The position numbers and the translations under genes are program-made. A stretch of 64,000 bases of DNA from NCBI GenBank assembly GCA_036346225.1, contig JARFIW010001343.1, forward strand, positions 186,001 to 250,000, read 5' to 3'. The DNA is from Platerodrilus igneus (taxonomy: Eukaryota > Arthropoda > Insecta > Coleoptera > Lycidae). The notes below the pieces were generated by a model. It made no database searches. It worked only from the letters and a program-made list of their open reading frames with translations, and was not told where the DNA came from. Below are positions 36,785-62,900 of this stretch, one piece after another; the first letter of the stretch is position 1, and every line of letters starts with the position of its first letter.

Positions 36785-38480
36785 TATTTTTATCGTCATT
36801 AGTTTTCCATCCTGGGACTGAGTGGATGCGTACCTAAATCGATTTCTATTCTGAGCTAGCTTACACATTTCTCTGAAATTCCCACATCTTACATCTTTTA
36901 CTATCTGTGTGCAATAGTCTAACTTAGGTCTACCTCTCTACTTCTTTTTTCTCATATATCTCCTTCTAATATATTCCGCATTATTTCCTCATGCCTTAGT
37001 TTCTCATATTATCCTATTTCAGTTACTGCTTTTCACATATTTCTTTCTCCCCTACTCTTTCTGGCATCTCTGTGTTTCAACTTTGTCTCCCCCATGATAT
37101 CGTCATCATACATCTGTAGCATAACATTTTAAGAGCTTCTATAATTTTCCTGTCCGTTTCTCCTCTTGTCCAAGTATCACAGCTGTACACTGCTGTGCTC
37201 CAAACATACGTTTTCAGCAATCCTTTGCTTGTTTCTATGTTTGTCGTCTTTGAACACAGTAGTTGCTTTTTCTTGTTAAATGTAGCACGACCTTGTGCTA
37301 ATCTTTGGTTTTATATCTTTTGTGCTTTTCCCATCTTGCGTTATGTGGCATTCTATGTAGCAGAAATCCTTAACCTCTTGTAAGTTCTCGTTACCTATTT
37401 ATATTCTTGTTTTTGGACTATTTTCCCTTCCTTTGCATACTAGAAATTTAGTTTTACTTTTGTTAATTTTCATACCGTATCTCTCTGTTAGAACTGTTTC
37501 CATTTCATTAAGAGCAGCTTTTAACTCTCCTTTGCTAGATGCTAATATCGCTATATCATCTGCAAATCCAAGCACATCTATCTTTTGTCCCTGCATAGTA
37601 ATTCCAAATGTCTTCCTGCATTTGACAGTATTCATTGTTTCTTCTATGTACAAGTTAAAAGTTAATGGGGATAATGCGCATCCTTGTCTCACCCCTTTCC
37701 TAATATTTACTTCTCTACGTTCCTGCTCTAATTCTATTATAGCTGTTTGCTCTTTGTATAAGCTACGCACTATCCGTCTATGCCTAAAACTCATTTCAAT
37801 CTTTTTGAGTATTGCGATCATTTTTTTCCATTTTATATTGTCGAATGCTTTTTCCAAATCTACAAACCCTATATACACGCTTTCCCCCTTTTCTATTGTT
37901 TTCTCCATTATCACCCTCAAAGCCAAAATAGCCTCCCGTTTTCCCTCTTTCGTCTAAACCTAAATTGATTTTCTCCTAGTATTTCTTCAGCTCGTTTTTT
38001 CATTTATCTTTGTACAATTTTAGTTAATATTTTTGACATGTTTGCTGTCAGACTTAATGTTCAAAAATTTTCTAATCTATCCGCGCCACTCTTTTATAGT
38101 ATAGTTACTATGATGTTACGTTTGAAACTTTTGGGTATCTCGCCTGTCTCATATATAAAGCTTACAAGTTGGAAGAGACGTTCTGTTACTGCTTGTCCAG
38201 CTGCTTTTAGAGTTTCTGCTTGCACCTTATCTGTACCAGGCACCTTACCATTTTTCAAACCCTTTAATGCTAATTCAAACTCATCTCTAAGTATAGGATA
38301 TCCTTGGTCATCATTGTCAATGTTTGATTCCTGTTCTAATGCTATTCGTTCCTCTCTTGCATATAAATTCCCTATACATTCTTGCCATCTAACCACTTTC
38401 TCTACATTTTCTATAATGACGTTTCCTCTCTCGTTTTTTTATATTTTTGCTATACGATTTTATATTCCTAAAACTCATTC
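36785..38480 (-). pseudogene. RTE-like LINE reverse transcriptase, copy 2
   Basis: Same family as 5747-7464. 38396-38094 carries the start of RT (LKNGKVPGTDKVQAETLKAA, SFKRNIIVTIL). 37926-37399 has intact motif A (YIGFVDLEKAFDNIKW), RQGCALSPLTFNLYIEE and FADDIAILASS with FADD at 37555-37566. 37000-36785 holds the C-terminal end. Frames change between 38094 and 37926 and around 37400. Relative to copy 1, motif A is undamaged, so the two copies complement each other for describing the family. Confidence 0.85.
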
Positions 38481-38990
38481 TAATTAGTTTGTATGCTTCG
38501 TCTGTCTTTCATATTTCCATCTTAGTTTGTACCTTTTCGCACTTTTCATCAACCCATTGTTCTTTAGCTTTCCTGCATTAGCAAGCGATTTCCCATTCTA
38601 TGCCTTTGTATCTCCGTTTTCCCGTTTCGTCTGATCTATTTTTGTATTTTCGTCTTTCTTCTATTAAATTTAGGATAAATTTTGTTGTCCAGATTTCTTA
38701 ATTTCGTTTTGTGAATACCCCAGAATTCTCTGGCCGCCATGTCTAAGTTGGATTTAATGTTATTCCATTCTGTTTCTACTTCCTTAGTATCAGAAATTTT
38801 CCCGATATCTTTCAGCAATTTATTTGACTTTTTTCAAATCTTTCGTTGATATCTTTATCTTTTAGTTTTTCAAAGGCAAAGTTCCTTTTTCCATTCCCTT
38901 TTTTTAAGTTTTTAAATTTAAGAGCGGGCTTTATAATTACGATGTTGTGGTCAGTGTGTATATCTGCTTCTGGATAGCTTCTACAGTCTT
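38481..38990 (-). pseudogene. RTE-like LINE linker between endonuclease and RT
   Basis: An open piece at 38818-38636 (EVETEWNNIKSNLDMAARE, FWGIHKTKLRNLDNK) matches the usual spacer in RTE-type ORFs, a helix-rich region without catalytic motifs. Confidence 0.65.
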
Positions 38991-43429: not shown

Positions 43430-44299
43430 TTAAATAAGCATCTCAACTTGTCCATTGTTTCTTTCTAAGCATTTAAATGTTCTTTTAGAAAATGATTTTA
43501 TTACATTTTTAATACCAGCCGGAGTAATATCGTCACATGCTTCCTGAATTGTTTTTTCCAAATGATTAATATTGTCGAATGGTCTTTTAAGGTACACTTT
43601 TTGCTTTAGGTATCCCCACAAAAAGAAGTCTAGTGGGTTCAGGTCTGGAGATCTTGCAGGCCAAGCAAATTCCATAAATCTTCCTAATACTCGTCCATTA
43701 AAAGTTTGCACTAGATATTCTCCAACATTTCTGGTACTATGACATGGTGCCCCATCATGTTGGTACCATATGCGTTGCCTTTCTATTATTGGTAGGTTAT
43801 CAATAAAATCTGAAACTTTATCAATCGAAAATTCTAAGTAACGTTTAGAATTTATAGTATTCCTGAAAAAAAAGGGTTCAACTATTCGATCCTTAAATAT
43901 TCCACACCATACAATTGTTTTAAAACAATATTGGTCGCGACATTCGACAGTAAAATGCGAATTAGTGTCGTTCCACCAGCGGCAATATTATGAGCTAACT
44001 GTCCCAATAGAAGTAAACGTTGCTTCGTCCGTAAAAAGTAAGCACCGTTCCATGTAATGATTATCTTCTAACTCTCCTTGGAACCAAGCACAAAATCCAA
44101 ACCTTTTATTAAAATCTTCGGGTTTTAGGGTTTGAATAAACTGGGGTTTGTAGGGTTTAAATTTGTTAGATTTTATTATCTTCGCAACTACATCTTTACT
44201 TACACCAAATGCGACCGATTTTTACCTTATCAAATCTTTAGGATTTTCTACTGCTGGGAGCATTATTTGGTTTTGCATATCTTCAGTCGCGATCCATCA
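43430..44299 (-). pseudogene. mariner-like transposase, DDE catalytic half
   Basis: IS630/Tc1/mariner-superfamily transposase of the type with DDE_3. On the minus strand, after several frameshifts, one finds LPAVENPKDLI, FIQTLKPEDFNKRFGF, LLFTDEATF (first D), a long block ending KTIVWCGIFKDRIVEPF, YQHDGAPCHSTRNV (second D), then the open piece 43711-43430 with FAWPARSPDLNPLDFFLWGY (third D). Its N-terminal DNA-binding part lies at 56535-56342, 12 kb away, separated by the Polinton-like insertion at 44306-56335. Cut-and-paste transposase, inactive. Confidence 0.85.
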
Positions 44300-44305
44300 C
44301 TGATG
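44300..44305. repeat. 6-bp target-site duplication of Polinton-like element, left
   Basis: CTGATG, identical to 56336-56341. Confidence 0.85.
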
Positions 44306-45361
44306 AGTAGATAGTTAAGGCGGTGATTGCCGCCTCATTTCCTCCAGAATCCCTCATTTCCTCACTCATCTGGACCAAATAGTTTTCTTCGACTAGCCAT
44401 TTTCATCTTTCGAGATAAATATATCTTGCATTTTCATCTTAGTATCCTCATTTCCTCCCACATCTGAACCAAATAATTTTTTTCGACTAGCCATTGCATT
44501 TTTCGAGATAAACCTATCTTGTTTGGTATCAACTAATATTAAAATTTTCTCAGCTACCTGAATTTCTAGGAATTTTTTAGATAGCATTATCCCCAGGGAG
44601 CTACTCTCATTTTAAGATTTTTTGCTGGTAGCGATTTTTTGGCCGTCCGCATAAAGTTTTTAACCATGCAACGTATCAAATTAGTCTGAAATTTTATGCA
44701 GAATTCGAATCTGCAAACAGATTTGATATAGGACCGCTCCTTACAAAGTTACACATATACACTCTGCGAAATAAATCTTTTTCCACATTTCCACCCACGT
44801 GATAAATGGACCTTGTTTGGTATCAACCAATATTAGATTTTTCTCAGCTACTCGAATCTCTAGGAATTTTTCAGATAGCATCATCCCCCAGGGAGCTACC
44901 CTCATTTTAAGATTTTTTGCTGGTAGCGATTTTTTGGCCGTCCGCATAAAGTTTTTAACCATGCGACGCATCAAATTAGTCTGGAATTTTATGCAGAATA
45001 CGAATCTGCAAACAGATTTGATATAAGACCGCTCCTTACAAAGTTACACATATACCCTGTGCGAGATAAATCTTTTTCCACATTTCCACCCACGAGATAA
45101 ATGTGCCTTGTTTGGTATCAATTTTAATATTAGAATTTTCTCAGCTTCCCAAATCTCTTTAAATCTTTCAGATAGCATCATCCCCCAGGGAGATCCCCCA
45201 TTTTAAGATTTTTTTACCGACAGCGATTTCTGACTGTCCTTATACATTTTCTTAAGCACGCGATACATCAAATTAGTCTAGAATTTTATGCAGAATCCGA
45301 ATCTGCAAACAGATTTGATATAGGACCGCTCTTTACAAAGTTACACATATTCCCTCCGAGA
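44306..45361 (+). repeat. left terminal inverted repeat of Polinton-like element, with ~300-bp subrepeats
   Basis: An outer ~90-bp unique end, then three subrepeats (about 44400-44760, 44761-45060, 45061-45361). Each subrepeat has CTTGTTTGGTATCAA, TTTTCTCAGCT, CAGATAGCAT, CCCAGGGAG, GCAAACAGATTTGATATA and CTTACAAAGTTACACATA. On the minus strand each encodes variants of LEIQVAEKNLILVDTKQ. A further scrap lies at 46905-47010. Confidence 0.85.
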
Positions 45362-45448
45362 GAAATCTTTCTACTCTATCAACATAGTCTAGTTTATCCA
45401 GAATAACCAACCTATTCCCCTTGTCAGCCTTTAAATAATAACAATTCT
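45362..45448 (-). pseudogene. Penelope-like element reverse transcriptase scrap
   Basis: Minus-strand frame with LKADKGNRLVILDKLDYVDR, which matches the conserved KADKGN...VIL...DY block near the start of Penelope-like RTs. About 28 codons only. Confidence 0.6.
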
Positions 45449-45723
45449 TTTGTCGTAAATGTATTGGTCAACAACCGATGAGAAAGCAAGAATAATTTGA
45501 TTCCGCTTCAGTGGATTTAGAATTAGTATAAATTAAGGAGATTATAGTTATAACATCACAATTCACTTGTTTGTTGTGGAGAATACCAGCCTGCGGGTGA
45601 GGAGAATATCCTCGATAGTGTTTAAAGCAACATTCTAGTAAATTGTATGTTGGGAAGGTTCACTTCAGCCTAAGTGGTGAGGAAAATATCCTTTGAAGTG
45701 TTCCGGAACAACAACTAATTATT
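45449..45723. other. non-coding part of the Penelope-like remnant
   Basis: Contains two similar segments (GGTGAGGAGAATATCCTCGA at 45596 and GGTGAGGAAAATATCCTTTG at 45679), about 83 bp apart, of the kind that precede the hammerhead-like motif. Confidence 0.4.
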
Positions 45724-45788
45724 AGTTAAAATTCCTACTGATGATGATCACATAGTGGTCGAAATACGTATCTAGTAATTTTAATATT
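45724..45788 (+). ncRNA. hammerhead-like ribozyme motif
   Basis: CTGATGA at 45738-45744, one extra T, stem II GATCAC/GTGGTC with ATA loop (45746-45760), GAA at 45761-45763, a four-pair self-complementary stem III ATAC/GTAT, then C at 45772. Stem I can form CTA/TAG plus TTAAAATT/AATTTTAA. The extra T between the conserved A and stem II departs from the canonical core. Penelope-like elements are known to carry such motifs, and an RT scrap of that class is 290 bp away on the other strand. Confidence 0.5.
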
Positions 45789-46593
45789 TTTTGTGGCTAA
45801 GGGTTTTTATTTAATTTTATTTAAATCGTGCCATAGTGTTCCTATAGATTATTCCCTCGTAAAAGGTAGAAAAAACTCGGTCAATCATCCATTTAACTTA
45901 TACTTCGACCCGCCCCCGTTCTGATAATTTCCAAACATTTTCCAAACGACAATGGTCTCAGAATTTTAAACCTCCGAGGGATCTATAAGTCGTGATCAAT
46001 TACACGTTCGAGCTACCGTTAAACTAGCATATTTTATAGTAACCGTGCGCTGTATAATACATGCATACCCCTTCTCTGCGCTACTGCTATTCTTGTAGTT
46101 GCTTGAAAAAGTCAGTCGCTTTTTTTTTACTGCTAGGACCGCTGCAAAGCACAATTCTATACTTTCTTTAAAAGTATAGCTCATCGCGTACTTTTTTGTC
46201 TGATAATTAAATTTTGCTCATGTAGGCTTTTACACTTTCGCATATTTAAACATCTAATACGATCGATTAACCACTTTCGATTATTCTAACGGGACCATAC
46301 ATTCCGCCGCACCGTTCTTTTTGAATCCAACGATCCGATGGGCTTCCACACACTAACACCTAACGTATCTTTCCTACTATTTGTTAAACAAAAACTACCG
46401 GCATCGCCATGCCCGTATGTAAACGTAACCAGATGTTTGTGGATGTGTGCGAGAATATGTAACCATATACATTAATCAGTGTAAGCTATTTTATTTAGTC
46501 CAAGAAAACTACTATTTTTCTAAACCACAATTAATAATCGCCTTTATAGGTTTAACATTCCTACCATTTCCCAATGACTGGTGCTACGTACAT
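45789..46593. other. unassigned DNA inside the Polinton-like element
   Basis: No coding region recognised. Confidence 0.4.
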
Positions 46594-46708
46594 GGAAACT
46601 TTAATTTCTTATTGGAGAAAATCCTTATTCTCCCACGCACTGTTGCGTAGTTGCATGCCCACCCCTTTTGGGAATATTTGCTCGTTATAGGTGGTAGCAC
46701 CCGCGGTT
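46594..46708 (-). pseudogene. third relic of the duplicated unknown gene
   Basis: On the minus strand ATTYNEQIFPK then GMQLRNSAWENKDFL corresponds to ATYNNHIFPKVVDMQLRNSE in the copy at 49.7 kb. The rest of this copy is gone. Confidence 0.75.
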
Positions 46709-46885
46709 TTACTTAACTACACTTCGTGAGACCCTTTTAATCTTTTTAATCGTATCTTTCTCGCTTGCAATACAGTAGGACTTGGTTTTTGTACCGAGGA
46801 ATTCTAATACTAGACCCCCATTAAATTTGTCTTTGAATTTCCCTACAACGTTTTTGTTGACAAGCGGTATATTGTATTTATTATC
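46709..46885 (-). pseudogene. DNA polymerase B C-terminal-like fragment
   Basis: A 58-codon minus-strand frame ending in TAA at 46711-46709: NIPLVNKNVVGKFKDKFNGG, then LVLEFLGTKTKSYCI and KKIKRVSRSVVK. Arthropod Polinton-type polymerases typically end with a segment of the form NKKVxGKFKDExxGKxxxEFVGLRxKMY followed by a lysine-rich KxKGxKK stretch. The match is from memory of the family and has not been searched. The exonuclease and polymerase motifs themselves are absent. Confidence 0.6.
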
Positions 46886-47480
46886 TGCGGGGTGGTCACT
46901 CTTTTAAGATAAATATATCTTGTTTGGTATCAACTAATATTAGATTTTTCTAGGGAGCCCAAACCTGTAAATAGATTTTAAATAGGACCACCCCTTACAA
47001 AGTTACGCGTTTTAAAAATTTCTGCCCATCTTTATTTAATTACATCCTTAGAACCTCTTTCGCTACCCAAGACATATGCTTTAACCAACCATTTCCCGAG
47101 AAATCTAAAACCGATGTGTCCCGCGAATACCACGTGGAGATAACACGTATACTTTGTCAACCAGGATAAAAGCAGGAACTATTTGGAAGAAGGAAAGGTG
47201 GTAGAAGAACGTAAAAATTATGGAATCTTAAAACTGATATATACAATAGATTTACAAAATCTATACAACTATCTTAGACCAATATGTCCCCATGCGTAGA
47301 TTGATATGCTTCCAGGATGACGTTACGCTAGTCATCTTCTCTCGATAAACTAATTTTATTAATAAGCTGCGTGTACAAATCGTGTTTCTTACTCCGGATA
47401 CATACGCCGGCAAGCACTTCATACCAAATAAAGATGTAGATGCTTGGTGACTGTTAACATCCGCTTCCCTCGTGTTCGCC
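46886..47480. other. unassigned DNA with a terminal-repeat scrap
   Basis: 46905-47010 repeats part of the terminal subrepeat (TATCTTGTTTGGTATCAAC, CTTACAAAGTTACGC). The remainder is unrecognised. Confidence 0.45.
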
Positions 47481-47616
47481 CAGACACATCCCAGCTCATG
47501 CGTACCCCTGATCATGCGCACCCCTGCGCGTGCGCACCCCTGCGCGTGCGCACCCCTGCCCGTGCGCATTCCAACCCATGCGCGCCCCTACTCATGTGCA
47601 CCCCTCTCTGTGCGAC
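47481..47616. repeat. 16-bp GC-rich minisatellite, about 7.5 copies
   Basis: Unit CATGCGCACCCCTGCG with variants, in register from 47497. Strikingly GC-rich in an AT-rich setting. A single extra copy sits at 54129-54144. Confidence 0.9.
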
Positions 47617-47880
47617 TGCTATTTCGTGGTAACGTCACAGCCTTTTGTAAATAAAGAGCAATGTAATATTATTCTAAAATTTTTATTCTGACATACATAA
47701 CAAAATTTAAAAATATTTAATACCAAGCATGGAGTCATTTAAACTTAATTTTAATAAAAGGTTATACACAGAAAACAGTCCTTTCTCTTTATGTTTGTTT
47801 GGAGTGGTTTTAATTTTATCTAATTTTATTCGCAGCTTAAAATTTAAGTCGACACCCAAGTCCTCTATCCCCTTTTCTAG

Positions 47881-49275
47881 TCAACAGATTGATACATAGA
47901 GACCTTCTAGGTTTTCGAATTGTAAAATGTACCGAAGTTTGCCTCTATATATAAAGTCTTTGATTCCACCGACAACCAGATCCATTTCTTCGTGTAATTC
48001 TTGCAGCTTGTGACAATCTTTTAATCGCGGCTCTCTCACTATATTCTGCATACGTGTCTTGTTAGCTTGATCGACTTCTTCTTGTCGGAATTGGAGGAAA
48101 TTCTTATACTCCCACTCACTTTTGCGTAGTTGCATGTCCACCACTTTTGGAAATATATGGTTGTTATAGGTTGTAAGACCCTCGGTTTTAAATGATCCGA
48201 AAGGTTCTTTTCTAGACAAATATATAATGTTTAACGGAACCCCTTTGCGTGTGGTGTACGCCAAGGTTACGAAACACGCATTCCTTAGTTCGTCTTTGTT
48301 ATCTGCCATTTCGATTAATACGTTTTTAAAATAACCTTTTAAAAAGTATACGGATTTAGTACCATCCTTTTCCGCAAGGACGCCTACATAACTAAAAGAG
48401 TCTTTTTTACTAACCACAAATGCATACAGCTTGTAGAAACCGGATGTATCTAAGTCAGTGCATCGGCACATAAAATAATCTTTTAATTCTTCCTCATCTC
48501 CTCTAATAAGATGTTCTTTGTCTAACACATTTTTGTATTGTTCGCGTATTGTCGCAGTGTTTTCCATGTAGTAAAACTTTCGCTTTTTGCATCCATTTCC
48601 TCTAATTCCAGTTGTCTTTTTCTTCCACTTACTGCGCATGGCGTGCATAAGGGGGCAATTTCCTTTAGCGTAAACGAATAGAGCTTACTGCCCATATTTA
48701 CGCGTTGTCGTACAACCTCTGGACGAATTTTAGGCGTATCTCTCAACTCCAATTCCGAAATGATTATTTATTTTGGAATTGTAGAGTACGGTTTGCAGAT
48801 TGTGTAAAACATGTACTACCTGCTTTAATGTAGCACTTGTGTAAAATTTTTATTTTATCTTGGCTATCTTGCTCCTCTACTATTTCCAAATAGTTTACAG
48901 GTAAATAGTTAAAACTAAAAACCGAAAGCACATAATTTATCAATTTTTCCCTTTCCTCTGGTTTTTCGGACTACTTAATTTGCAAGCCCGTCAATTTCTT
49001 TGTATTGCCATTCCCCCAATACACGTACTGCAGCAGGTTATTATACACTAAACAGCAGCTATTTTGTAGCTTACTCCACATTTTGGCAAGTGGTATCGAG
49101 TACATTGGCGCCTTTAAGAAGTATAACTTACTCTCTTCCAATAAGGTTAAACAGTCTTTTAAGGGATTATACACCCGTTCCGCACTGACATAGCTTCCAA
49201 GTGTATAGTTGTATATTGTCGTTTCCAATCGCGTAGTACCATGTTCTTTGGCCAAAGTAGACGCAAATGTTTCCC
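47881..49275 (-). pseudogene. unknown Polinton-associated gene, tandem copy A
   Basis: I do not recognise this protein. Read right to left, 49255-48971 carries AKEHGTTRLETTIYNYTLGS, RVYNPLKDCLTLLEESK and NTKKLTGLQIK. 48752-48522 bridges in another frame, and 48648-47881 (255 aa) carries DTSGFYKLYAFVVSKKDSFS, YLGVLAEK-type YVGVLAEKDGTKSVYFLKGY, GVPLNIIYLSRKEPFGSF, YNNHIFPKVVDMQLRKSEW and GLYVSIC. The last part is polar, with alternating beta-like and helical segments and no signal peptide or membrane segment. It lacks the N-terminal part present in copy B and is broken by frameshifts near 48520-48970. Confidence 0.6.
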
Positions 49276-51187
49276 TTAAACGTACATCTGGACAACGTAA
49301 AAATTTAGTATATCTAGACAGAAAAGAGTCCTTTCTTTATGTTTGTTTGGAGTGGTTTTAATTTTATCTAATTTTATTCGCAGCTTAAAATTTAAATAGA
49401 CACCCAAGTCCTCTATCTCCTTTTCTAGCCAATAGTTTGATACATAGAGACCGTCTAGGTTTTCGAATTGTAAAATGTACCGAAATTTGCCTCTATGTAT
49501 AAAGTCTTTGATTCCACCGACAACCAGATCCATGCCTTCGTGTAATTCTTGCAGCTTGTGACAATCTTTTAATCGCAGCTTTCCCACTATATCCTGCATA
49601 CGTATCTTGTTAGCTTGATCGACTTCTTCTTGTCGGTATTGGAGGAAATCCTTATTTTTCCACTCACTATTACGTAGTTGCATGTCCACCACTTTTGGGA
49701 ATATATGGTTGTTATAGGTTGCAAGACCCTCGGTTTTAAATGATCCGAAAGGTTCTTTACTAGGCAAATATACAATGTTTAGCGGAACCCCTTTGCGTGT
49801 GGTGTACGCCAAGGTTACGAAACCCGCATTCCTTAGTTCGTCTTTGTTATCTACCATTTTGATAAATACGTTTTTAGAATAACCTTTTAAAAAGTATACG
49901 GATTTAGTACCATCCTTTTCCGCAAGAACGCCTAGATAACTAAAAGAGTCTTTTTTACTAACCACAAATGCATACAGCTTGTAGAAACCAGATGTATTTA
50001 AGTCAGTCCATCGGCACATAAAATAATCTTTTAATTCTTCCTCATTTTCTATATTAAGATGTTCTTTGTCTAACACATCTTTGTTCGCGTATTGTCGCAG
50101 TGTTTTCCATGTAGTCCAACTTCTGCTTTTTGCACCCATTTCCTCTAATTCCAGTTGTCTTTTCTTCCACTTACAGCGTATGGCGTGCATAATGGGGTAA
50201 TCTCCTTTAGCGTAAACGGATAGAGTTTACTATCAATATTTACGCCTTGTTGTACAATTTCTGGGCGAATGTTAAGCGTATCTATCAACCCCAATTCCGA
50301 AATGACTATTTCTTTTGGAATTGTTTAATATGGTGTTGCAGATTGTGTAAAATATGTACTACTTGCTTTAATGGAGCACTTGTGTAATATTTTTATTTTA
50401 TCTTGACTATCTTCCTCCTCTACTATCTCCAAATAATTTACAGGTAAATGGTTAAAACTAAAAGCCGAAAGCACATACTTTATCAATTTTTCCCTTTCCT
50501 TTGGTTTTTCTGACAACTTAAATTGCAACCCCGTCAATTTCTTTGTATTGCAATTCCCCCAATATGCGTACTGTAGTAGGTAATTATACACTAAACAGCA
50601 GCTATTTGGTAGCTTGTCCGATAGCTTACTTTACATTTTGGCAAGTGGTACCAAGTACATTGGCGCCTTTAGGAAGTATAACATACTATCTTCCAATAAA
50701 GTTAAACAAGTCTTTTAAGGGATTATACACCCGTTCCGCATTGACATAGCTTCCAATTATACAGTTGTATATTGTCGCTTCCAATCGCGTAATACCATGT
50801 TCTTTGGCCAAAGTAGACGCAAATGTTCCCCTTAAACGTACATCTAGACAACGTAAAAAAATCTACTATATGATTGCCAAGTTGTTTATTAACACCAGGA
50901 CTTGTTATCTGACACACAAATTTGTTGTATATCTTAATTCTTGCATTGGTTGTTAACCATGTTAAACAATCAATTCCTACAGTTTTATCGTTGTCAACTA
51001 TAATATTACACTTTTCTTCGTATTCGCCCTTATAGCAAAAGTTATGGTTTGTAGTTAAATAATTACACATCTCCATCTTGCTAAATATACCCGCAAAATC
51101 TTGGGTTACATCCATGTTGTACACGCCTCTTGGAACGACAAGGGACGCAAATAGAAATTGCCTGGAGTGCAGTAGGCAGTAAACCAC
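49276..51187 (-). pseudogene. unknown Polinton-associated gene, tandem copy B (most complete)
   Basis: Most complete copy; equivalent points in copies A and B are 1,548 bp apart. 51187-50723 gives the N-terminus: a likely start MDVTQDFAGIF, KTVGIDCLTWLTTNARIKIY, NKFVCQITSPGVNKQ and LGNHIVDF. A frameshift at an A-run near 50855 leads into AKEHGITRLEATIYN. 50591-50325 and then the 304-aa frame 50190-49276 complete it (KLYAFVVSKKDSFSYLGVLA, FIHRGKFRYILQFENLDGLY). The arrangement R-x-K-I-Y-N-K followed 40-60 residues later by T-R-L-E resembles rolling-circle replication initiators, but I see no HUH motif and do not assign a function. The C-terminus runs through the duplication junction. Confidence 0.6.
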
Positions 51188-51190
51188 GGG

Positions 51191-51533
51191 TTGTAAGGTA
51201 GAGCATAGACTGTATAGAGTAAAAGGAAGGATACATAGATTTTGAATACAAAGTCACATAAATACTTAAACGCACTTACCGAAGCACAACATCTAGAGCA
51301 CTAACGCGGCACCTTTCAGTACTGTTTCTGGCCAGAGGTAAAAAGGAACGGAGTAAAGAAATGATTATGGTAGGAAGACATTATAGAAGGTTAATATTGA
51401 GAATTGAATAAAACACGTTCGCGTTCGCAGATGGTTGTTAATCGACTCTTTTAATTATGCTATTCCTTATCTAGTCTGGCTTGTTAAAGAATACCACGTT
51501 GGGAGAGCCAAATGGCGCGAACATAACCGCCCA
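51191..51533 (-). repeat. LTR of the inserted BEL/Pao element
   Basis: On the minus strand it begins TGTTCGCGCCATTTGG right after a purine-rich GGTGGGCGG tract (51534-51545), the usual polypurine tract/LTR junction of BEL/Pao elements, and ends CTACCTTACA at 51191. The 343-bp length is inferred from TG...CA ends. It abuts the upstream end of the unknown gene, which shows the order of insertion. Confidence 0.6.
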
Positions 51534-51545
51534 CCAAAAATAAAC

Positions 51546-51790
51546 TTTTTTTTTTAAAATGATATATACAAACTTGAAAAGAAAATTGTATTATAACTGG
51601 GCATTTCCTCCCAGTAAGGGGCTACGGTTACCCGCCGATACTCGGGATAGAAAAGAAGCAAAATAAAACGCGATTTTTTTTTTTAAAAACTAAATCTAAG
51701 TTGGAGCAAGAAATAAGAAAAAAAATTAGTTTTCTAAAGGAACGGGTATTATTTTATTTACCGACCGAGTGAGGGAACCGTGGATGGTTT
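51546..51790 (-). other. BEL/Pao region between pol and LTR
   Basis: Untranslatable sequence between the truncated pol and the LTR; the distal integrase is missing. Confidence 0.4.
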
Positions 51791-53152
51791 TTACCGACAC
51801 CACGCGAACAACACCATAAAAGCATTAGTAGTAAGTTCGAAAACTAATTCCAAGTGAACAGCTCTCGTGCACATGCACACGAAAACACAAAGATATGATT
51901 TGAAAGAAGAAGCATTACGCCGAATGGAAGACTTAACAAGCAACGGTCCAGCAAAGTCAACTCCAACATGAGTAAAGGCACGAGTTAATTGTACTCGGGA
52001 CGGAGGCAAATTAGACATAATGGGTTGAGAAGGCTTGGAATTAAATCGGAAACATGGTATGCATTGATGTATTCGTTGTCGTATTAACAATCGTGATTGT
52101 AAAATCCAGTATTTTCTTAGAATAAGAGCTTGTGTGGTAAGAGGTCCGGAATACAAAGATAACGCATGATAGTGGTCGCAAATAAGTTTAGATAAAGCTG
52201 CCCTTTTAGGCAATAACAGAGGATGTTTGCTATCATAGTTCAATTGTGAATGCTGTAAGCGACCGCCCACCCTAAGCAAACCTAGAGTATCGATAAACGG
52301 CGATAATTTTCTAAAAGAGGCGGAGAAAGGTTTTTTATTTTTTATTTGCAACAATTCTACTGCAAAAAATTGTTGTTGAACAAGTTTCACGTATGCTTGT
52401 GATGCATTATGTAATTCATCACGAGAAATAGGACCTAGAATTTTTCCCATGGGGTGACGGCAATTATAAATAAAACGAATAATATATGCCATTGCATATT
52501 GCAAGCGACTTAAAGGAGAAAAATTTCCCATGAATTCAGCAAAATCGCACTGTTCTAATGCAACCAGTAGTGTAGTAATTGATTTTAATTCAGGTACTTC
52601 ACTCAAAGGAACAAAAGAGTAGTTGAGGTTAAAACAAGCATCATTTAAATTAGATGCACCTTTCCACCACAAATCGTGGCGTAATAATTGAAGAGGGGTG
52701 AGTCCACGAGAAGCGACGTCAGCAGGGTTAAGTTCTCCGGAAACATGGCTCCATTGATCAATGGAGGTATATTCTAGAATTTGGCTTACTCGATTTCCTA
52801 CAAAAGGTTTTAACAAATATGTAGGCGTACGCAACCATGTAAGTACGACTTGAGAGTCTGAATAAAGTTTAGTTTCCGAAATAGGGCATGGAAATTTATT
52901 TGAACGCATAGAATGAATTAATTTGGCTAATAAAAGAGCTGCAGAAAGTTCTAAGCGTGGGATAGTAAGATGTTTTAGAGGAGCAACCTTGCTGTTGGCT
53001 TGTGAAAGATTACAATTTACCGATTTATCACTAACAACATATAAGTAGACACAAGCGCCGTATCCCCTTTCGCTTGCATCGCAAAATCCTAGTAATCGAA
53101 AAGTGCCGTGTAATTGAGACAAAATACGAGGAATTTTTAGCTGGGATAACAT
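51791..53152 (-). pseudogene. BEL/Pao RNase H and integrase, truncated
   Basis: A 453-codon frame: FRLLGFCDASERGYGACVYL, LTIPRLELSAALLLAKLI, LYSDSQVVLTWLRTP, FVGNRVSQILE, GELNPADVASRGLTP and LWWKGASNL (RNase H); then the linker (LLRVGGRLQHSQL), integrase zinc-binding HHCC region (ICDHYHALSLYSG, HQCIPCFRF), and core start with first D in HVGVDFAGPLLVK, CTRAVHLELV. The core breaks off at 51791 before the second D and E, so the protein cannot integrate. This is the best preserved BEL/Pao frame in the window. Confidence 0.9.
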
Positions 53153-53922
53153 AGTAATTTGGTTACAAAAGCCTTGCCATTCTTGACACCACTTATGATC
53201 AGGGTATCATCCCAATCAATTTGTTGAATCCACAGTCGTTGTAACATATGCTTTACTACAAATATTACTAGAGTCAACCACCCTAAAGGGTCAAATATGC
53301 GGGCCATATAAGAAAGTACAGAGCGTTTTGTAAATTCACCTTTAAAGGGTATCACGTTATAAGTGAACACGTCTATTCCAGGGTTCCAGACTAAACCTAG
53401 TATCTTTATACCACTAACGTGATCAGAAAAAGGAATTAGAGATTCTAATTCAGTTTGTTCGAAATCCTGTAACAATTCCTCAGAGTTACTAGACCATTTG
53501 CGCAAATCAAACTGGCCTAGAGAAAGAAGTTTTACTAGCTCGTGCTGTAGTTGCTTCGCTTCAGCAATACTTTCAGCACCGCTAATTACGTCATCCATTT
53601 AGGTATGATACATAATAGCTTCAGAAGCCAGGGAGTAAGAGTTTCCTTCATCTATAACCAATTGCCGAAGAACTCTTTGAGCTAAGAAAGCGGAAGGAGC
53701 TAACCCATATGAAAGAGTTCTAAGCTCGTACTCAGAAATGTTGTCTTGTGGAGTTGGTCTCCAAAATATATGCTGAAATTGACAATCTTGCTTACGAAGT
53801 AAGATCTGCCGGTACATCATGCGAATGTTCGCACAAACAGCAATTTTATGCGATCTAAATGTATTTATTATATCTGGTAAATTGCACTGTAATTTGGGAC
53901 CAAACCTAACTCCGGACAACAC
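53137..53922 (-). pseudogene. BEL/Pao reverse transcriptase, motif A mutated, stop before catalytic box
   Basis: 53922-53599: FGPKLQCNLPDIINTFRSHK, motif A reads CANIRMMYRQI, with N where the catalytic D is expected. Then FWRPTPQDNISEYELRTLSY follows and a stop at 53601-53599. The next frame, 53598-53137, resumes at MDDVISGAESIAEAKQ (the DD of the catalytic box) and continues LGQFDLRKWSSNS, GLVWNPGIDVF and SYMARIFDPLGWLTLV. It overlaps the following frame by a few codons. The 5' end is truncated at about 53900 into a short tandem repeat. Confidence 0.9.
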
Positions 53923-54016
53923 TAGCTAACCTAGCTCTCGACAAGTCCACATCCTAACCTAACTTAACTCCGGACAACACTAGCTAACCTAACTCTCGAC
54001 AAGTCCACATCCAACC
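53903..54016. repeat. 58-bp direct repeat, two copies
   Basis: TCCGGACAACACTAGCTAAC at 53911 and 53969, followed in both by CTCTCGACAAGTCCACATCC. Confidence 0.9.
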
Positions 54017-54033
54017 TAGGTCGGAGGCAATTT

Positions 54034-54092
54034 TACCATATGGGGTAATTACACCGTATGGGGTAATTTCACCCTATGGGGTAATTTCACCC
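54034..54092 (+). promoter_or_regulatory. short tandem repeats TATGGGGTAAT upstream of the zinc-finger ORF
   Basis: Three copies of TATGGGGTAATT(T/A)CACC, 18-19 bp apart, ending about 30 bp before the ORF start at 54123. They could be binding sites; this is inference from position only. Confidence 0.4.
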
Positions 54093-54122
54093 AAACCTAA
54101 CATCCTACATATATCCGGACAT

Positions 54123-54605
54123 ATGTCAATGCGCACCCCTGCCCAGTTCGACCTAGGTCGGATTAAATCCGACCTAGGTCGGATAACAAAACTGTTCCTA
54201 AACAAGAACGGGGTGGTACCTGCAAACGTTTTTAAATGCGAGCCCTGTCACGTCTGCTTTACCAGTAGGGATGCCTTCAAACGGCACCAGAACAAATGTT
54301 GTGGTGTAACATCGTCCACGGTTAAGCTTATACATCCATCAGCAGCAAAGTGCTTAAACTGTGGGTCTTGCGGTATTGCTTTTACGAGAATGGACAACTT
54401 ACAGCGGCACAAGGAAAAACAGCACGGTATGTCATTAAGCCGTGAACGTTCAGCTCCGCCAGCTGTTAAAGGTTCTTGTACGAAACAACCGCGAATTGTG
54501 TGTAAAGTATGCGATTTCGAAATGGTAAAGACTACCTATGCCGCACACTTGAGAAGCAACAGACATAAAAATGCATCAGTTCCGCTACTGGCGAAGATGG
54601 TGTAG
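54123..54605 (+). CDS. C2H2 zinc-finger protein of the Polinton-like element
   Basis: An open 160-aa frame. After a repeated DLGRI peptide, it has a first finger CEPCHVCFTSRDAFKRHQNKC (C-x2-C-x12-H-x4-C-like), a second finger CGSCGIAFTRMDNLQRHKEK with H-x4/5-H, and a third atypical C-x2-C unit (CKVCDFEMVKTTYAAHLRSN, ending H-x5-H). It is likely DNA-binding. In arthropod genomes such fingers often precede the Polinton-type polymerase ORF, and here the next ORF starts 2 bp after the stop in another frame, so this may be the finger domain of a once larger polymerase polyprotein. It is intact as far as visible. The ATG at 54123 is the first in frame; a second at 54129 is equally possible. Confidence 0.65.
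   Translation: MSMRTPAQFDLGRIKSDLGRITKLFLNKNGVVPANVFKCEPCHVCFTSRDAFKRHQNKCCGVTSSTVKLIHPSAAKCLNCGSCGIAFTRMDNLQRHKEKQHGMSLSRERSAPPAVKGSCTKQPRIVCKVCDFEMVKTTYAAHLRSNRHKNASVPLLAKMV
54149..54183. promoter_or_regulatory. paired CCTAGG palindromes
   Basis: CGACCTAGGTCG at 54149-54160 and TCCGACCTAGGTCGGA at 54168-54183, perfect palindromes 21 bp apart centre to centre. A half-related AACCTAGGTCGGAGG is at 54013. They lie inside the beginning of the zinc-finger ORF. Confidence 0.45.
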
Positions 54606-54607
54606 AA

Positions 54608-55009
54608 ATGGTTAGCACGGCGTTTAACAGCCGTATGGCTAGCTATCGCATAAAGAACGCCAGTGTCGACGATGGAGTATCCGAGTTTCTTTGGAAGCAG
54701 GAAGAGCGGTTTATTCGATTACTTAATGAAAAAAGAACACAACATACAGCAATAAAAGTCTATTGCAAACTCTACGGCATCTACACAAAAATGGCAGAAG
54801 AGACTACCGATGTGAAATCCTTTAACACAAGAAATATGGTTATAACATTTTCTAACAATCTGAAAAATATGTACGAGGTTTTAAGCGAAACCATGAAAAC
54901 AAAATTAGAGGAATTTGAAACACGTGGGTCCGGTTGGTCTTTGCAAAAGATGCTCTATTTAGAAATAAATATTAATAAGTATAAGCCCATGTCAGGAGTT
55001 CTAGGTTAA
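54608..55009 (+). pseudogene. DNA polymerase B N-terminal region-like ORF, truncated
   Basis: 133 aa, starting 2 bp after the zinc-finger stop. It ends in GSGWSLQKMLYLEININKYK followed by PMSGVLG. Arthropod proteins that carry a Polinton-type DNA polymerase B usually have, well upstream of the catalytic domain, a segment GSGWxLxxIxxLxxNINKYxPLxGSSYIxLP. Here the frame stops just inside it, before any exonuclease or polymerase motif, and no continuation is found before the terminal repeat at 55150. The preceding ~100 residues are helical and polar. It was probably one polypeptide with the finger domain. Family match from memory. Confidence 0.6.
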
Positions 55010-55149
55010 GTATAAAAATTGTGAATATGTATTTAGAAATGTGGTTTACAAAATTTAAACTGTATTAGTAAAAATTGTCTGTAATAAAAAGTTTTAAGAA
55101 TGGTTTTTAGATTTTCTTTTAGGTATGAGCTACAGGAAAGTTATAATTT

Positions 55150-56335
55150 AAAGGGTGTGTGTGTGTAAAATGGTAGGGGGTGGTCCGATTTTAAATCTAT
55201 TTCGAGATTCGGATTCTGCATAAAATTCTAGACTAATTTGATGTATTGCAAGACTAAAAAATTTCTAAGGACGGTCAGAAATCGCTGCTGGTAAAAAATC
55301 TTAAAATGAGGGTAGCTTCCTGGGGGGTGATGCAATCTAAAAAATTCTTAGAGATTCAGGTAGCTGAGAAAAATCTAATATTAATTAATACCAAACAAGA
55401 TAGATTTATCTCGAAAGATGAGCTAAACAAGATAGAAAGTATGGTATGACATTAAAAGCGAGTAGTGGTACGGTGGCGGTATGCTCACTAGAAGGTATGT
55501 GTGTAACTTTGTAAGGAGTGATCCGATTTTAAATCTGTTTACAGATTCGGATTGTACGTAAAATTCTAGACTAATTTAACGTATCGCATGTCTAAAAAAT
55601 TTATAAGAACGGGTAAAAATCACTACCAGCAAAAAATCTTTAAATGAGGGTAGCTTCCTGGGGGATGATGCTATCTGAAAAATTTCTAGAAATTCAGGTA
55701 GCTGAGAAACATCTAATATTAATTGATACCAAACAATGTACATTTATCTTGTGGGTGGAAATGGCTAGTCGAAGAAAACTATTTGATTCATAATGTTAGC
55801 GGTAAAAAAATCTGAAAATTGGAGTAGCCCCCTGGGGGATGATGGTATCTAAAAAATTCCTAGAAATTCAGGTAGCTGAGAAACATCTAATATTAATTGA
55901 TACCAAACAATGTACATTTATCTCGTGGGTGGAAATGGCTAGTCGGAGAAAACTATTTGATTTATAATGTTACCGGTAAAAAAATCTTAAAACTGGAGTA
56001 GCCTCCTGGGGAATGATGGTATCTAAAAAATTCCTAGAAATTCAGGTAGCTGAGTAAAATCTAATATTAATTGATACCAAACAATATAGATTTATCTCGT
56101 GGGTGGAAATGTGAAGAAAGATTTATTTCGCGGGTGGAAAGAAGGCTGATGTGACGTAATCAAAAGGGTTGATGTGGGGGTGTCTAACAAGGAGGAGAGC
56201 AATGAGGGAGCTAGTAGGAAAATCCATCTCCTCGAATTCTCCTTATGGGAATTTACATGTAAATTTGGTCCATGAGTGAGGAAATGAGAGAAGCTGGAAG
56301 AAATGAAGCGGCAGTAGCCCCCTTAACTATCTACT
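55150..56335 (-). repeat. right terminal inverted repeat of Polinton-like element
   Basis: Inverse of 44306-45361, with four to five subrepeats of 180-350 bp (CTACCC/GGTAGC...CCTGGGGGATGATG, GATACCAAACAA, CGAGTGGG-type ends), and the outer ~85 bp matching the left end. 56130-56250 is a segment not present on the left. On the plus strand it encodes the peptide variants seen in the left repeat (FLEIQVAEKNLILINTKQ). Confidence 0.85.
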
Positions 56336-56341
56336 CTGATG
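56336..56341. repeat. 6-bp target-site duplication of Polinton-like element, right
   Basis: CTGATG, identical to 44300-44305. Confidence 0.85.
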
Positions 56342-56535
56342 TTTTTTTCTGAATTTATTATTGACATTTCCATCTCTCCTGAATTTTTCATTATTTTACT
56401 AATCGTTGCAAAATGTACATTTTTATCGGGATGTTTGTTATTGAATATTACTGCAGATTCCCTATAGGTTTTGTAGTTATCTTCGGCAATTAGTACAATT
56501 TCAATTTTTTCGTCAAGGGTCAATTTCAACAGCAT
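56342..56535 (-). pseudogene. mariner-like transposase, N-terminal DNA-binding half
   Basis: Starts at the ATG at 56535 with MLLKLTLDEKIEIVLIAEDN, then ESAVIFNNKHPDKNVHFATI and SKIMKNSGE, a helix-turn-helix of the kind found at the start of insect mariner-like transposases (DUF4817 type). It runs into the Polinton-like element at 56341; the catalytic half resumes at 44299. Confidence 0.8.
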
Positions 56536-56545
56536 TTTTGCTACT

Positions 56546-56905
56546 ATCTTGTTGATAATAAATGTTCCGATACTAATTTAACAGATCGAGAGCATAATTT
56601 AACAGGTATTTGACCACCTACACACGAATTTAACAACTTTCTGATAACTCCCAAGCAAACACAATGCATGCATCCCACATTTAGAATCATTAGTGGTGAC
56701 TAACCAATAAGATGATTTTCATCTATTTGCATAGCAAATGATGCATCCGTTTTCTTCTTGGAGCATCAATTCCAGGCAACACAATTCTTCCATTAATATA
56801 TTCGCCAGGTTCTGCGCATTTATCACAAGAAGAATATCCTCCATTAGATTTTACTGGCTTTATAAATGCACGAACTGGAGCATCACATATAAAAATATGA
56901 ATGTC
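56546..56905 (-). pseudogene. DNA transposase fragment (CDAPxRAFIK ... MHxVCLGV type)
   Basis: Minus-strand frame 56905-56737: DIHIFICDAPVRAFIKPVKS, NGGYSSCDKCAEPGEYINGR, IVLPGIDAP. After a stop and frame change, 56715-56546: NVGCMHCVCLGVIRKLLNS ending in a stop. This CDAPAR-FIK / C-x2-C / MHLVCLGVxRKLL arrangement is common in uncharacterised insect and cnidarian transposases, often annotated with DUF4806 neighbours. The catalytic remainder is absent. The mariner-like gene begins directly beside it. Confidence 0.65.
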
Positions 56906-56940: not shown

Positions 56941-59900
56941 GACAATTAGGGAGCAAACCCCGCATAAAAGCAAGATACCCGCAATTCAGACAAAAACAGA
57001 ATACCACGAGCATATCTTTGAGTTTAAAGTTGTCGATTCAGTTCTAAATATAAAAACTCATAACCGTTTTTATTTCAAAACTGCGTAGGTCCGATCTGTT
57101 CCAAATTCTTTAAGACGATCCGTAGCAAGCCCCGATAAAAGAAACATACCAGCAATTTAATCAAAACAGAATACCACGGGCAAAACTTCGAGTTTAAAGT
57201 TGACCATTTTGGCTAAACAATAAAAATTCAGAACCGTTTCATGTTTTAAAACTGCGTAGGTCGGGACCAACCCAAACTCTTTAGGACAATTCACAGCAAG
57301 CCCCGAATAAAAGAAAGATACTCGCAATTCAGGCAAAAACAGAATACCACGAGCAAATCTTCTAGTTAAAGTTGTCGATTATGGTCTAACTATAAAAATT
57401 CATAACCGTTTTTTCTTTAAAACTGCGTAGGTCTGATCCGATCCAAACTCTTTAGCACGTTCCGTAGCAAGCCCTGAATAGAAGTAACATACCCGCAAAT
57501 CGGGTAAAAATAGAATACCACGAGCATATCTTCGAGTTTATTGTTGTCGATTATGGACTAACTATAAAAATTCATAACCGATCCAAACTCTTTAGCACGA
57601 TCCGAAGCAAGCCTTGAATAAAAGAAACATACCCGCAATTCAATCAAAAACAGAATACCACGGGCAAAACTTCGAGTTTAAAGTTGTCGATTCTGGCCTA
57701 ATTATAAAAATTCAGAACCGTTTTTTTTTTAAACTGCGTAGGTCGGGCGCGATTGAAACTCTTTATGATAATCCGCAGCAAGCCCCACATGAAAGGAAGA
57801 TACCCGCAATTCAGGAAAAAACAGAATACCACGAGCATATCTTCGAGTTTAAAGTTGTCAATTCAGTTCTAAATATAAAAACCCATAACCGTTTTTATTT
57901 CAAAACTGCGTAGGTCCGATCTGTTCCAAATTCTTTAAGACGATCCGTAGCAAGTCCCGAATAAAAGAAACATACCCGCAATTCAATCAAAACAGAATTC
58001 CACGGGCAAAACTTCGAGTTTAAAGTTGACGATTTTGGCTAAACTATAAAAATTCAGAACCGTTTCATGTTTTAAAACTGCGTAGGTCGGGACCAACCCA
58101 AACTCTTTAGGACAATTCACAGCAAGCCCCGAATAAAAGAAAGATACTGGCAATTCAGGCAAAAACAGAATACCACGAGCAAATCTTCTAGTTAAAGTTG
58201 TCGATTATGGCCTAACTATAAAAATTCATAACCGTTTTTTCTTTAAAACTGCGTAGGTCTGATCCGATCGAAACTCGTTAGCACGTTCCGCAGCAAGCCC
58301 TGAATAGAAGAAACATACCCGTAAATCGGGTAAAAATAGAATACCACGAGCAAATCTTCGAGTTTATTGTTGTCGATTATGGACTAACTATAAAAATTCA
58401 TAACCGATCCAAACTCTTTAGCACGATCCGTAGCAAGCCTTGAATAAAAGAAACATACCCGCAAATCAATCAAAAACAGAATACCACGGGCAAAACTTCG
58501 AGTTTAAATTTGTCGATTCTGGTCTAACTATAAAAATTCAGAACCGTTTTTTTTTTAAATTGCGTAGTTCGGGCGCGATTGAAACTCTTTATGATAATCC
58601 GCAGCAAGCCCCGCATGAAAGGAAGATACCCGCAATTCAGGCAAAAACAGAATACCACGAGCACATCTTCGAGTTTAAAGTTGTCGATTCAGTTCTAAAT
58701 ATAAAAACTCATAACCGTTTTTATTTCAAAACTGCGTAGGTCCGATCTGTTCCAAACTCTTTAAGACGATCCGTAGCAGGTCCCGAATAAAAGAAACATA
58801 CCCGCAATTCAATCAAAACAGAATTCCACGGGCAAAACTTCGAGTTTAAAGTTGACGATTTTGGCTAAACTATAAATATTCAGAACCGTTTCATGTTTTA
58901 AAACTGCGTAGGTCGGGACCAACCCAAACTCTTTTGGACAATTCACAGCAAGCCCAGAATAAAAGAAAGATACTCGCAATTCAGGCAAAAACAGAATACC
59001 ACGAGCAAATCTTCTAGTTAAAGTTGTCGATTATGGTCTAACTATAAAAATTCATAACCGTTTTTTCTTTAAAACTGCGTAGGTCTTATCCGATCCAAAC
59101 TCTTTAGCACGTTCCGTAGCAAGCCCTGAATAGAAGTAACATACCCGCAAATCGGGCAAAAGTAGAATATCACGAGCAAATCTTCGAGTTTATTGTTGTC
59201 GATTATGGACTAACTATAAAAATTCATAACCGATCCAAACTCTTTAGCACGATCCGTAGCAAGCCTTGAATAAAAGAAACATACCCACAATTCAATCAAA
59301 AACTGAATACCACTAGCAAAACTTCGAGTTTAAAGTTGTCGATTCTGGCCTAACTATAAAAATTCAGAACCGTTTCTTTTTTTAAAACCGCGTACGTCGG
59401 GCGCGATTGAAGCTCTTTATGATAATCCGCAGCAAGCCCCGCATAAAAGGAAGATACCCGCAATTCAGGCAAAAACAGAATACCACGAGCATATCTTCGA
59501 GTTTAAAGTTGTCGATTCAGTTCTAAATATAAAAACTCATAACCGTTTTTATTTCAAAACTGCGTAGGTCCGATCTGTTCCAAATTCTTTAAGACGATCC
59601 GTAGCAAGCCCCGAATAAAAGAAACATACCCGCTATTCAATCAAAACAGAATTCCACGGGCAAAACTTTGAGTTTAAAGTTGACGATTTTGGCTAAACTA
59701 TAAAAATTCAGAACCATTTCATGTTTTAAAACTGCGTAGGTCGGGACCAACCCAAACTCTTTAGGACAATTCACAGCAAGCCCCGAGTAAAAGAAAGATA
59801 CTCGCAATTCAGGCAAAAACAGAATACCACGAGCAAATCTTCTAGTTAAAGTTGTCGATTATGGTCTAACTATAAAAATTCATAACCGTTTTTTCTTTAA

Positions 59901-62900
59901 AACTGCGTAGGTCTGATCCGATCCAAACTCTTTAGCACGTTCCGTAGCAAGCCCTGAATAGAAGTAACATACCCGCAAATCGGGCAAAAATAGAATACCA
60001 CGAGCAAATCTTCGAGTTTATTGTTGTCGATTATGGACTAACTATAAAAATTCATAACCGATCCAAACTCTTTAGCACGATCCGTAGCAAGCCTTGAATA
60101 AAAGAAACATACCCGCATTCAATCAAAAACTGAATACCACGAGCAAAACTTCGAGTTTAAAGTTGTCGATTCAGTTCTAAATATAAAAACTCATAACCGT
60201 TTTTATTTCAAAACTGCGTAGGTCCGATCTGTTCCAAACTCTTTAAGACGATCCGTAGCAGGTCCCGAATAAAAGAAACATACCCGCAATTCAATCAAAA
60301 CAGAATTCCACGGGCAAAACTTCGAGTTTAAAGTTGACGATTTTGGCTAAACTATAAATATTCAGAACCGTTTCATGTTTTAAAACTGCGTAGGTCGGGA
60401 CCAACCCAAACTCTTTTGGACAATTCACAGCAAGCCCAGAATAAAAGAAAGATACTCGCAATTCAGGCAAAAACAGAATACCACGAGCAAATCTTCTAGT
60501 TAAAGTTGTCGATTATGGTCTAACTATAAAAATTCATAACCGTTTTTTCTTTAAAACTGCGTAGGTCTTATCCGATCCAAACTCTTTAGCACGTTCCGTA
60601 GCAAGCCCTGAATAGAAGTAACATACCCGCAAATCGGGCAAAAGTAGAATATCACGAGCAAATCTTCGAGTTTATTGTTGTCGATTATGGACTAACTATA
60701 AAAATTCATAACCGATCCAAACTCTTTAGCACGATCCGTAGCAAGCCTTGAATAAAAGAAACATACCCACAATTCAATCAAAAACTGAATACCACTAGCA
60801 AAACTTCGAGTTTAAAGTTGTCGATTCTGGCCTAACTATAAAAATTCAGAACCGTTTCTTTTTTTAAAACCGCGTACGTCGGGCGCGATTGAAGCTCTTT
60901 ATGATAATCCGCAGCAAGCCCGCATAAAAGGAAGATACCCGCAATTCAGGCAAAACAGAATACCACGAGCATATCTTCGAGTTTAAAGTTGTCGATTCAG
61001 TTCTAAATATAAAACTCATAACCGTTTTTATTTCAAAACTGCGTAGGTCCGATCTGTTCCAAATTCTTTAAGACGATCCGTAGCAAGCCCCGAATAAAAG
61101 AAACATACCCGCTATTCAATCAAAACAGAATTCCACGGGCAAAACTTTGAGTTTAAAGTTGACGATTTTGGCTAAACTATAAAAATTCAGAACCATTTCA
61201 TGTTTTAAAACTGCGTAGGTCGGGACCAACCCAAACTCTTTAGGACAATTCACAGCAAGCCCCGAGTAAAAGAAAGATACTCGCAATTCAGGCAAAAACA
61301 GAATACCACGAGCAAATCTTCTAGTTAAAGTTGTCGATTATGGTCTAACTATAAAAATTCATAACCGTTTTTTCTTTAAAACTGCGTAGGTCTGATCCGA
61401 TCCAAACTCTTTAGCACGTTCCGTAGCAAGCCCTGAATAGAAGTAACATACCCGCAAATCGGGCAAAAATAGAATACCACGAGCAAATCTTCGAGTTTAT
61501 TGTTGTCGATTATGGACTAACTATAAAAATTCATAACCGATCCAAACTCTTTAGCACGATCCGTAGCAAGCCTTGAATAAAAGAAACATACCCGCAATTC
61601 AATCAAAAACTGAATACCACGAGCAAAACTTCGAGTTTAAAGTTGTCGATTCTGGCCTAACTATAAAAATTCAGAACCGTTTCTTTTTTTAAAACTGCGT
61701 ACGTCGCGCTCGATTGAAACTCTTTATGATAATCCGCAGCAAGCCCCGCATAAAAGGAAGATACCCGCAATTCAGGCAAAAACAGAGTACCACGAGCATA
61801 CCTTCGACTTTAAAGTTGTCGTTTCAGTTCTAAATATAAAAACCCTTAACCGTTTTTATTTCAAAACTGCGTAGGTCCGATCTGTTCCAAATTCTTTAAG
61901 ACGTTCCGTAGCAAGCATCGAATAAAAGAAACATACCCGCAATTTAATCAAAATAGAAATCCACGGGCAAAATTTCGAGTTTAAAGTTGACGATTTTGGC
62001 TAAACTATAAAAATTCAGAACCGTTTCATGTTTCAAAACTGCGTAGGTCGGGACCAACCCAAACTCTTTAGGACAATTCACAGCAAGCCCCGAATAAAAG
62101 AAAGATACTGGCAATTCAGGCAAGAACAGAATACCACGAGCAAATCTTCGAGTTTAAAGTTGTCGATTCAGTTCTAAATATAAAAACCCATAACCGTTTT
62201 TATTTCAAAACTGCGTAGGTCCGATCCGTTCCAGATGCTTTAGGACGATCCGTAGGAAACCCCGAATAAAAGAAACATATCCGCAATTCAATCAAAACAG
62301 AATACCACGGACAAAACTTCGATTTTAAAGTTGACGATTTTGGCTAAACTATAAAAATTCAGAACCGCCTCATTTTTTAAAACTGCGTAGGTCGGGACCA
62401 AGCCAAACTCTTTAGGACGATTTGCAGCCAGCCCCGAATAAACAAAAGGTACTCGCAATTCAGGCAAAAACAGAATACCACGAGCAAATCTTCTAGTTTA
62501 AAGTTGTCGATTCAAGTCTAACTGTAAAAATGTATAACCGTTTTTTTTTTATAAACTGCGTAGGTGTGATGCGATCCAAACTCTTTAGCACGTTCCGTAG
62601 CAAGCCCTGAATAGAAGTAACATGCCCGCAAATAAGGCAAAAACAAAATACCACGAGCAAATCTACGAGTTTATTGTTGTCGATTCTGGTCTAACTATAA
62701 AAATTCATAAGCGTTTTTTCTTTAAAACTGCGTAGGTCTGATCCGATCCAAACTCTTTGGCACGTTCTGTAGCAAGCTTTGAATAGAAGTAACCTACCCG
62801 CAAATCGGACAAAAATAGAATACCACGAGCCAATCTACGAGTTTATTGTTGTCGATTATGGACTAACTATAAAAATTCGTAATCGATCCAAACTCTTTAG

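Follow-up and report, generated by a model that had tools for sequence, protein, structure and literature searches.

We describe here an insertion at positions 44306–56335 of a 64,000-nucleotide stretch of contig JARFIW010001343.1 from the lycid beetle Platerodrilus igneus (this whole stretch is referred to as the window), which joins ends of the Polinton (Maverick) type to a gene whose product may resemble Rep_trans replication initiators in its predicted fold. The element ends in AGTAGATAG; the 15-mer occurs once on each side, at 44306 on the plus strand and at 56321–56335 on the minus strand, and has the AG/AGT-type start described for Polintons (PMC8097293; this and the other papers cited here are cited for excerpts). 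The hexamer CTGATG directly abuts both ends. When inverted, the outer ~75 bp of the two ends are 85.5% identical, and the tandem arrays inside them (44504–45370, with a 295-bp unit, and 55631–56111, with a 174-bp unit) match at ~75–86% identity, giving a terminal inverted repeat of ~1 kb that is long in the manner of Polintons. A preliminary description of this DNA had reported the inverted 15-mer, the exact direct repeat and the inverted arrays, and all three are borne out.

The same description placed the insertion within a mariner-like gene, and this is supported in two ways. The open reading frame (ORF) to the left has a weak match to DDE_3 (E 0.00087, 19.6 bits, under the Pfam cut-off of 28.6), and the two flanks, joined as a 400-bp sequence with one CTGATG, are found uninterrupted elsewhere in the genome, with 29 of the 41 genomic matches reported covering all of bases 1–400 and 36 spanning the junction; the two examined base by base contain the target once. 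Such matches across the genome mean that the mariner-like gene is repetitive in its own right, with the empty site provided by copies of it elsewhere. No consistent conservation of a terminal hairpin was seen in the 14 ends tested (z -1.7 to 1.2), and an Rfam scan at gathering thresholds gave no match.

Between the repeats (Table 1) lie two broken tandem copies of the Rep_trans-like/OB gene, a nested retroelement fragment, and a zinc-finger/terminal-protein gene. The tandem copies (47765–49313 and 49315–50871) are 91% identical and represent a 1.55-kb duplication; ORF 49276–50226 encodes the OB-like C-terminal part, and ORF 50723–51253 contains the motifs DVTQDF, GIDCLTW, and KIYNK. The homology of relatives stops at 51117, so the first ~190 codons of the gene are missing from this copy. 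The zinc-finger ORF has Pfam matches to zf-C2H2_4 (E 1.6e-05) and zf-met (7e-05), and the ORF downstream of it, in a different frame, is 32% identical over 130 residues (E 1e-12) to the N-terminus of a Polinton PolB from the same genome, that of the G type described below. Published modelling assigns the N-terminus of the polinton polymerase (pPolB) to a terminal-protein domain that is followed by a vOTU domain (PMC11071308). Neither the vOTU nor the polymerase part of PolB has a tblastn match in the window, and a search for proteins homologous to the terminal-protein ORF returned 11 candidates and no match. Among the ten window ORFs scanned with Pfam we found no double jelly-roll (DJR) capsid, ATPase, or protease and, the nested fragment aside, no RVE integrase, in agreement with the preliminary description. 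The sole polymerase-type ORF of the ten, 51791–53206, belongs to the nested BEL/Pao fragment (PF05380, E 7e-27; Integrase_H2C2, 7e-06), and the BEL/Pao stretch has no match among the listed matches to relatives.

Table 1. Features of the element and its flanks, in window coordinates.
Feature	Position	Strand	Basis or detail
Mariner-like transposase gene, C-terminal part, host of the insertion	ORF 43430..43987	-	
Left copy of target duplication CTGATG	44300..44305		sequence and empty site
Left terminal inverted repeat	44306..45370	+	15-bp end, ~75-bp outer repeat, 295-bp unit array
Spacer kept in relatives	45851..47727		GC-rich 16-bp repeat at 47497-47605; no intact gene seen
Rep_trans-like/OB gene, one tandem copy, broken	47765..49313	-	ORFs 47881-48684, 48971-49336
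Rep_trans-like/OB gene, other copy, broken	49315..51253	-	ORFs 49276-50226, 50325-50630, 50723-51253
Nested BEL/Pao pol fragment, foreign to the element proper	51791..53925	-	51791-53206 by Pfam; remainder by eye (ORFs 53137-53598, 53599-53925)
C2H2 zinc-finger ORF, N-terminal part of zinc-finger/terminal-protein gene	53988..54605	+	
Predicted terminal-protein domain	54569..55009	+	ends shortly before vOTU region
Right terminal inverted repeat	55152..56335	-	174-bp unit array
Right copy of target duplication CTGATG	56336..56341		sequence and empty site
Mariner-like transposase gene interrupted by the insertion, N-terminal part	56323..56577, from 56342 on	-	

The same ends occur throughout the 2.71-Gb assembly (1,723 contigs). 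Allowing T or G at one place, exact matches to the 15-mer number 50 (25 of each), versus five for a reversed control pattern, and form ten inward-facing pairs including that of the window; an eleventh pair (C488) has a left end with one mismatch. The 29 unpaired occurrences were left aside except for two on one contig (C165:843058 and 856502), both on the minus strand and with an identical 47-bp context, and so a product of local duplication instead of paired ends. All ten pairs besides the window have a perfect 6-bp duplication, with nine distinct sequences among them (TATATT is present at both C991 and C1527). Eight further loci were fetched through the Rep gene, and in the four with both ends recognised a 6-bp duplication is present in C318, C1259, and C780 and absent from C356; the others (C1038, C3, C965, and C1326) have one recognised end or none and lie outside this count. 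In all, 14 of 15 end pairs are flanked by a direct duplication whose length is exactly 6 bp, versus 26 of 38,896 shifted 6-mer pairs. Other copies therefore share the termini and boundaries of the window element, which survived this check on its extent, and the Polinton-type signature of AG ends, long inverted repeats and 6-bp duplications is upheld.

The ends fall into two types. Those with T (the window, C771, C991, C1309, and C488) have the terminal arrays in common, and the best local matches of the left window repeat to the left ends of the other four are at 80–85%, whereas the left repeats of the six G-type pairs have no BLAST similarity to it. Two G-type elements, C634 and C646, both contain matches to a DJR-like capsid and a PLA2-like protein, and an Endonuclease_7-like match below cut-off, with DNA_pol_B_2 matched in C634 and rve in C646. 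They are 95–98.5% identical over common stretches, their terminal repeats are 98.5% (C634:909369-926386) and 96.4% (C646:2205677-2221310) identical, and we take them as true Polintons. Among the T-type elements, C771 (18.1 kb) has an interior of mostly nested Ty3/Gypsy sequence, and C488 (C488:800949-808906) matches the terminal protein, vOTU, and polymerase, the only one of 15 stretches searched with a vOTU or polymerase match (E 3e-20 and 3e-67, respectively); it is possibly a PolB-bearing sister lineage.

The Rep-bearing elements themselves form a large family. Searched with 912 bp of the broken gene, the genome gave 4,658 first-look candidates, of which all 40 scored were at least 94% identical, with one further partial match at 91%, and the terminal-protein piece gave 3,158, with all 40 scored at 93% or above. 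These two samples set the copy number at 40 or more, and the candidate counts suggest thousands. Three copies with both ends recognised, C318 (13,129 bp), C1259 (12,959 bp), and C780 (12,845 bp), have long inverted arms with arrays, the spacer, and a zinc-finger region; each arm of C318 and of C1259 contains the terminal-protein part, and the Rep gene is single in C780 but occurs twice, partly truncated, in the other two. Differences between copies number 320, 331, and 525 at codon positions 1, 2, and 3, a modest third-position excess. Arm segments within one copy are 95.1–99.1% alike in four copies (among them C965, for which the ends are not established), against 80–94.5% between copies, although in C1259 the outer arms reach only 90.6% and within-copy likeness is thus no strict rule. 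The preliminary description had suggested a fairly recent insertion, but this is not supported, as the window repeats are 75–86% alike as against 89.7–99.2% in the other copies measured, even if array misregister may lower the window value somewhat. Together with the missing Rep codons, this indicates that the window copy is probably old and inactive.

Could the family have arisen simply by deletion from an autonomous Polinton lineage in which the Rep_trans-like/OB gene is an accessory and PolB, integrase, and capsid genes are all present? The same genome does contain Polintons whose ends are nearly identical and which have Polinton gene content, and C488 shows that ends but one mismatch from those of the window can accompany a polymerase. 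However, a 5.0-kb interior stretch of C488 has no Rep match, and nine ORFs of the complete copies C318 and C780, scanned with Pfam, yielded zinc fingers and no other family, including no integrase, DJR capsid, ATPase, or protease. Moreover, where the match reaches residue 120, a stop lies within five codons of the end of the window terminal-protein ORF in six stretches from four copies (C991, C318, C1259, and C1038); near the boundary with vOTU the stop is thus a common feature and not private decay. We therefore regard the deletion derivative as unlikely, if the least so of the alternatives.

The Rep_trans-like protein is 785 residues long, and three Rep_trans entries rank first for residues 60–344. 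A predicted catalytic tyrosine with a lysine two residues on (YxK) is present in 26 of 26 compared rows, and is represented by KIYNK in the window. The predicted acidic metal ligands are similarly conserved (N' aspartate in 25 of 25, motif I aspartate in 24 of 25, and motif IV glutamate in 27 of 27, with the equivalence of D68 taken from aligned ranges only), although the N' part is missing from the window copy. As in the initiators of this class (PF02486; RepC/RepDE of the pT181 family and RepSTK1), the tyrosine lies on a beta-strand in the predicted fold and is accompanied by the lysine, one arginine, and the D/D/E ligands with the same local spacing. The differences are also clear: there is no sequence-level match, PF02486 included, and hhalign comparisons with five plasmid Reps were not significant; R189 is replaced by lysine; and the full motif strings RxD and YxKxxE given in a review of the class (PMC5714925) are not present, with LxD and YxKxxxQ in their place, so that the arginine of the first and the glutamate of the second are absent. 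The protein also continues into a long helical part and OB-like domains. A structure of the 316-residue ORF alone was poor (pLDDT 44) and was set aside, and we regard as noise the three best PDB rows from Foldseek (vaccinia capping enzyme, TM 0.06).

The protein might instead be of another kind, similar to baculovirus LEF-3 and with a role in single-strand DNA binding or packaging, in which case the likeness to Rep_trans would be a chance arrangement of beta-sheets. LEF-3 and RPA70N are matched, but at residues ~567–681, outside the N-terminal half where Rep_trans entries take the top three places and where the catalytic equivalents are invariant in all but one row and correctly spaced, and we consider this explanation rather improbable. 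Database homologues of the protein number 36, at 33–64% identity, as might be expected of a widely moving element, and would also fit a separate lineage of endogenous linear DNA viruses with an unrecognised capsid. No relative was confirmed in viral_contigs and none was found in genome_contigs, and with zinc fingers as the sole family in the nine ORFs scanned from C318 and C780 a viral lineage seems very unlikely. We note that the protein (P0016) is also among the annotated products of a 60-kb contig in a Candidatus Baumannia metagenome-assembled genome, probably through contamination by the host insect.

A foldback or Helitron-type origin, without relation to Polintons, might also be considered in view of the arrays inside the long inverted arms and of the OB-like domains in a rolling-circle-type protein. 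The Helitron Rep is of the HUH class, and Helitrons are not known to make a target duplication. The element described here has 6-bp duplications, AGT ends, and a match to the Polinton PolB N-terminus, and no helicase family was found in its 785-residue protein, whereas the Helitron protein is a Rep joined to a helicase (PMC6431247); an origin of this type is thus exceedingly improbable. Some Helitrons do resemble the element in having both a rolling-circle-type initiator and an RPA-type single-strand-binding protein (PMC6431247, in the excerpted account). Rolling-circle Reps are reported there also for the Terminons of rotifers, which are likewise eukaryotic mobile elements, but are giant retroelements without Polinton-type ends.

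We lean towards the reading that 44306–56335 is an inserted and now broken copy of a high-copy, Polinton-ended family with a zinc-finger/terminal-protein gene and a predicted Rep_trans-like nickase with OB domains, and for which Polinton polymerase and integrase likely act in trans. The preliminary description of a Polinton-like element thus holds for the ends but is incomplete, as the element is not a whole Polinton. Animal Polintons (adintoviruses) share the AGT-type ends, the 6-bp duplication, the long inverted repeats, and the terminal-protein end of pPolB, although integrase, the PolB palm, and capsid were found neither in the window nor in the nine ORFs of its two complete relatives, and in the element the terminal protein stops before vOTU and long inverted arms carry the Rep_trans-like/OB gene. 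A terminal protein encoded apart from pPolB has a parallel in a polinton of the coral Stylophora, but there a vOTU-pPolB is described in the same element (PMC11071308, as excerpted), and the Rep copies searched here yielded no polymerase. It has also been noted that some adintoviruses carry zinc-finger genes and that chimeric replicases occur in animal viruses (PMC11071296).

The simplest scheme would be a satellite that keeps its ends for the Polinton integrase and its terminal protein for the Polinton PolB, while itself contributing a predicted nickase-OB protein. The terminal-protein domain would prime replication at the AGTAG ends with helper PolB, the Rep_trans-like domain would nick element DNA, the OB-like domains would hold the single strand, and helper integrase would make the 6-bp duplication. 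Panhandle copying of the linear DNA could keep the two arms of one copy alike, which would explain why they tend to stay so.

Other repeats also populate the window. A tandem satellite of ~172/344-bp units (56952–63162) lies immediately to the right of the element, a second BEL/Pao-like polyprotein in pieces (29966–33853) resembles the nested one as judged by eye, and two copies of a region (5504–7523 and 36547–38579, 86% identical) contain an ORF resembling reverse transcriptase, and are presumably of the non-LTR type.

More tentatively, and with rather less confidence than in the reading above, the family may represent a new class of eukaryotic satellite transposon, in which the element's own terminal protein hires the Polinton polymerase and its own Rep_trans-type nickase is fused to single-strand-binding domains, joining protein-primed linear replication with rolling-circle-type initiation, at high copy, with near-palindromic arms and with kin in several insects. 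Our search of open-access papers turned up no Rep_trans-like gene described for a Polinton-type element, subscription literature and Repbase lying outside that search, and the class has been described for bacterial plasmids and phages (PMC5714925, in the part cited). In the evolution of viruses and transposons Polintons mark a meeting point, and if animal satellites that live off them are confirmed, virophage-type parasites would have a counterpart in animals. Arm identity could provide a clock with which to date each insertion. For Rep_trans-like initiators, a eukaryotic transposon would likewise be a new home, and the ~785-residue protein, at present uncharacterised or hypothetical in the records of Schistocerca, Planococcus, Cacopsylla, and Laodelphax, would gain a function.
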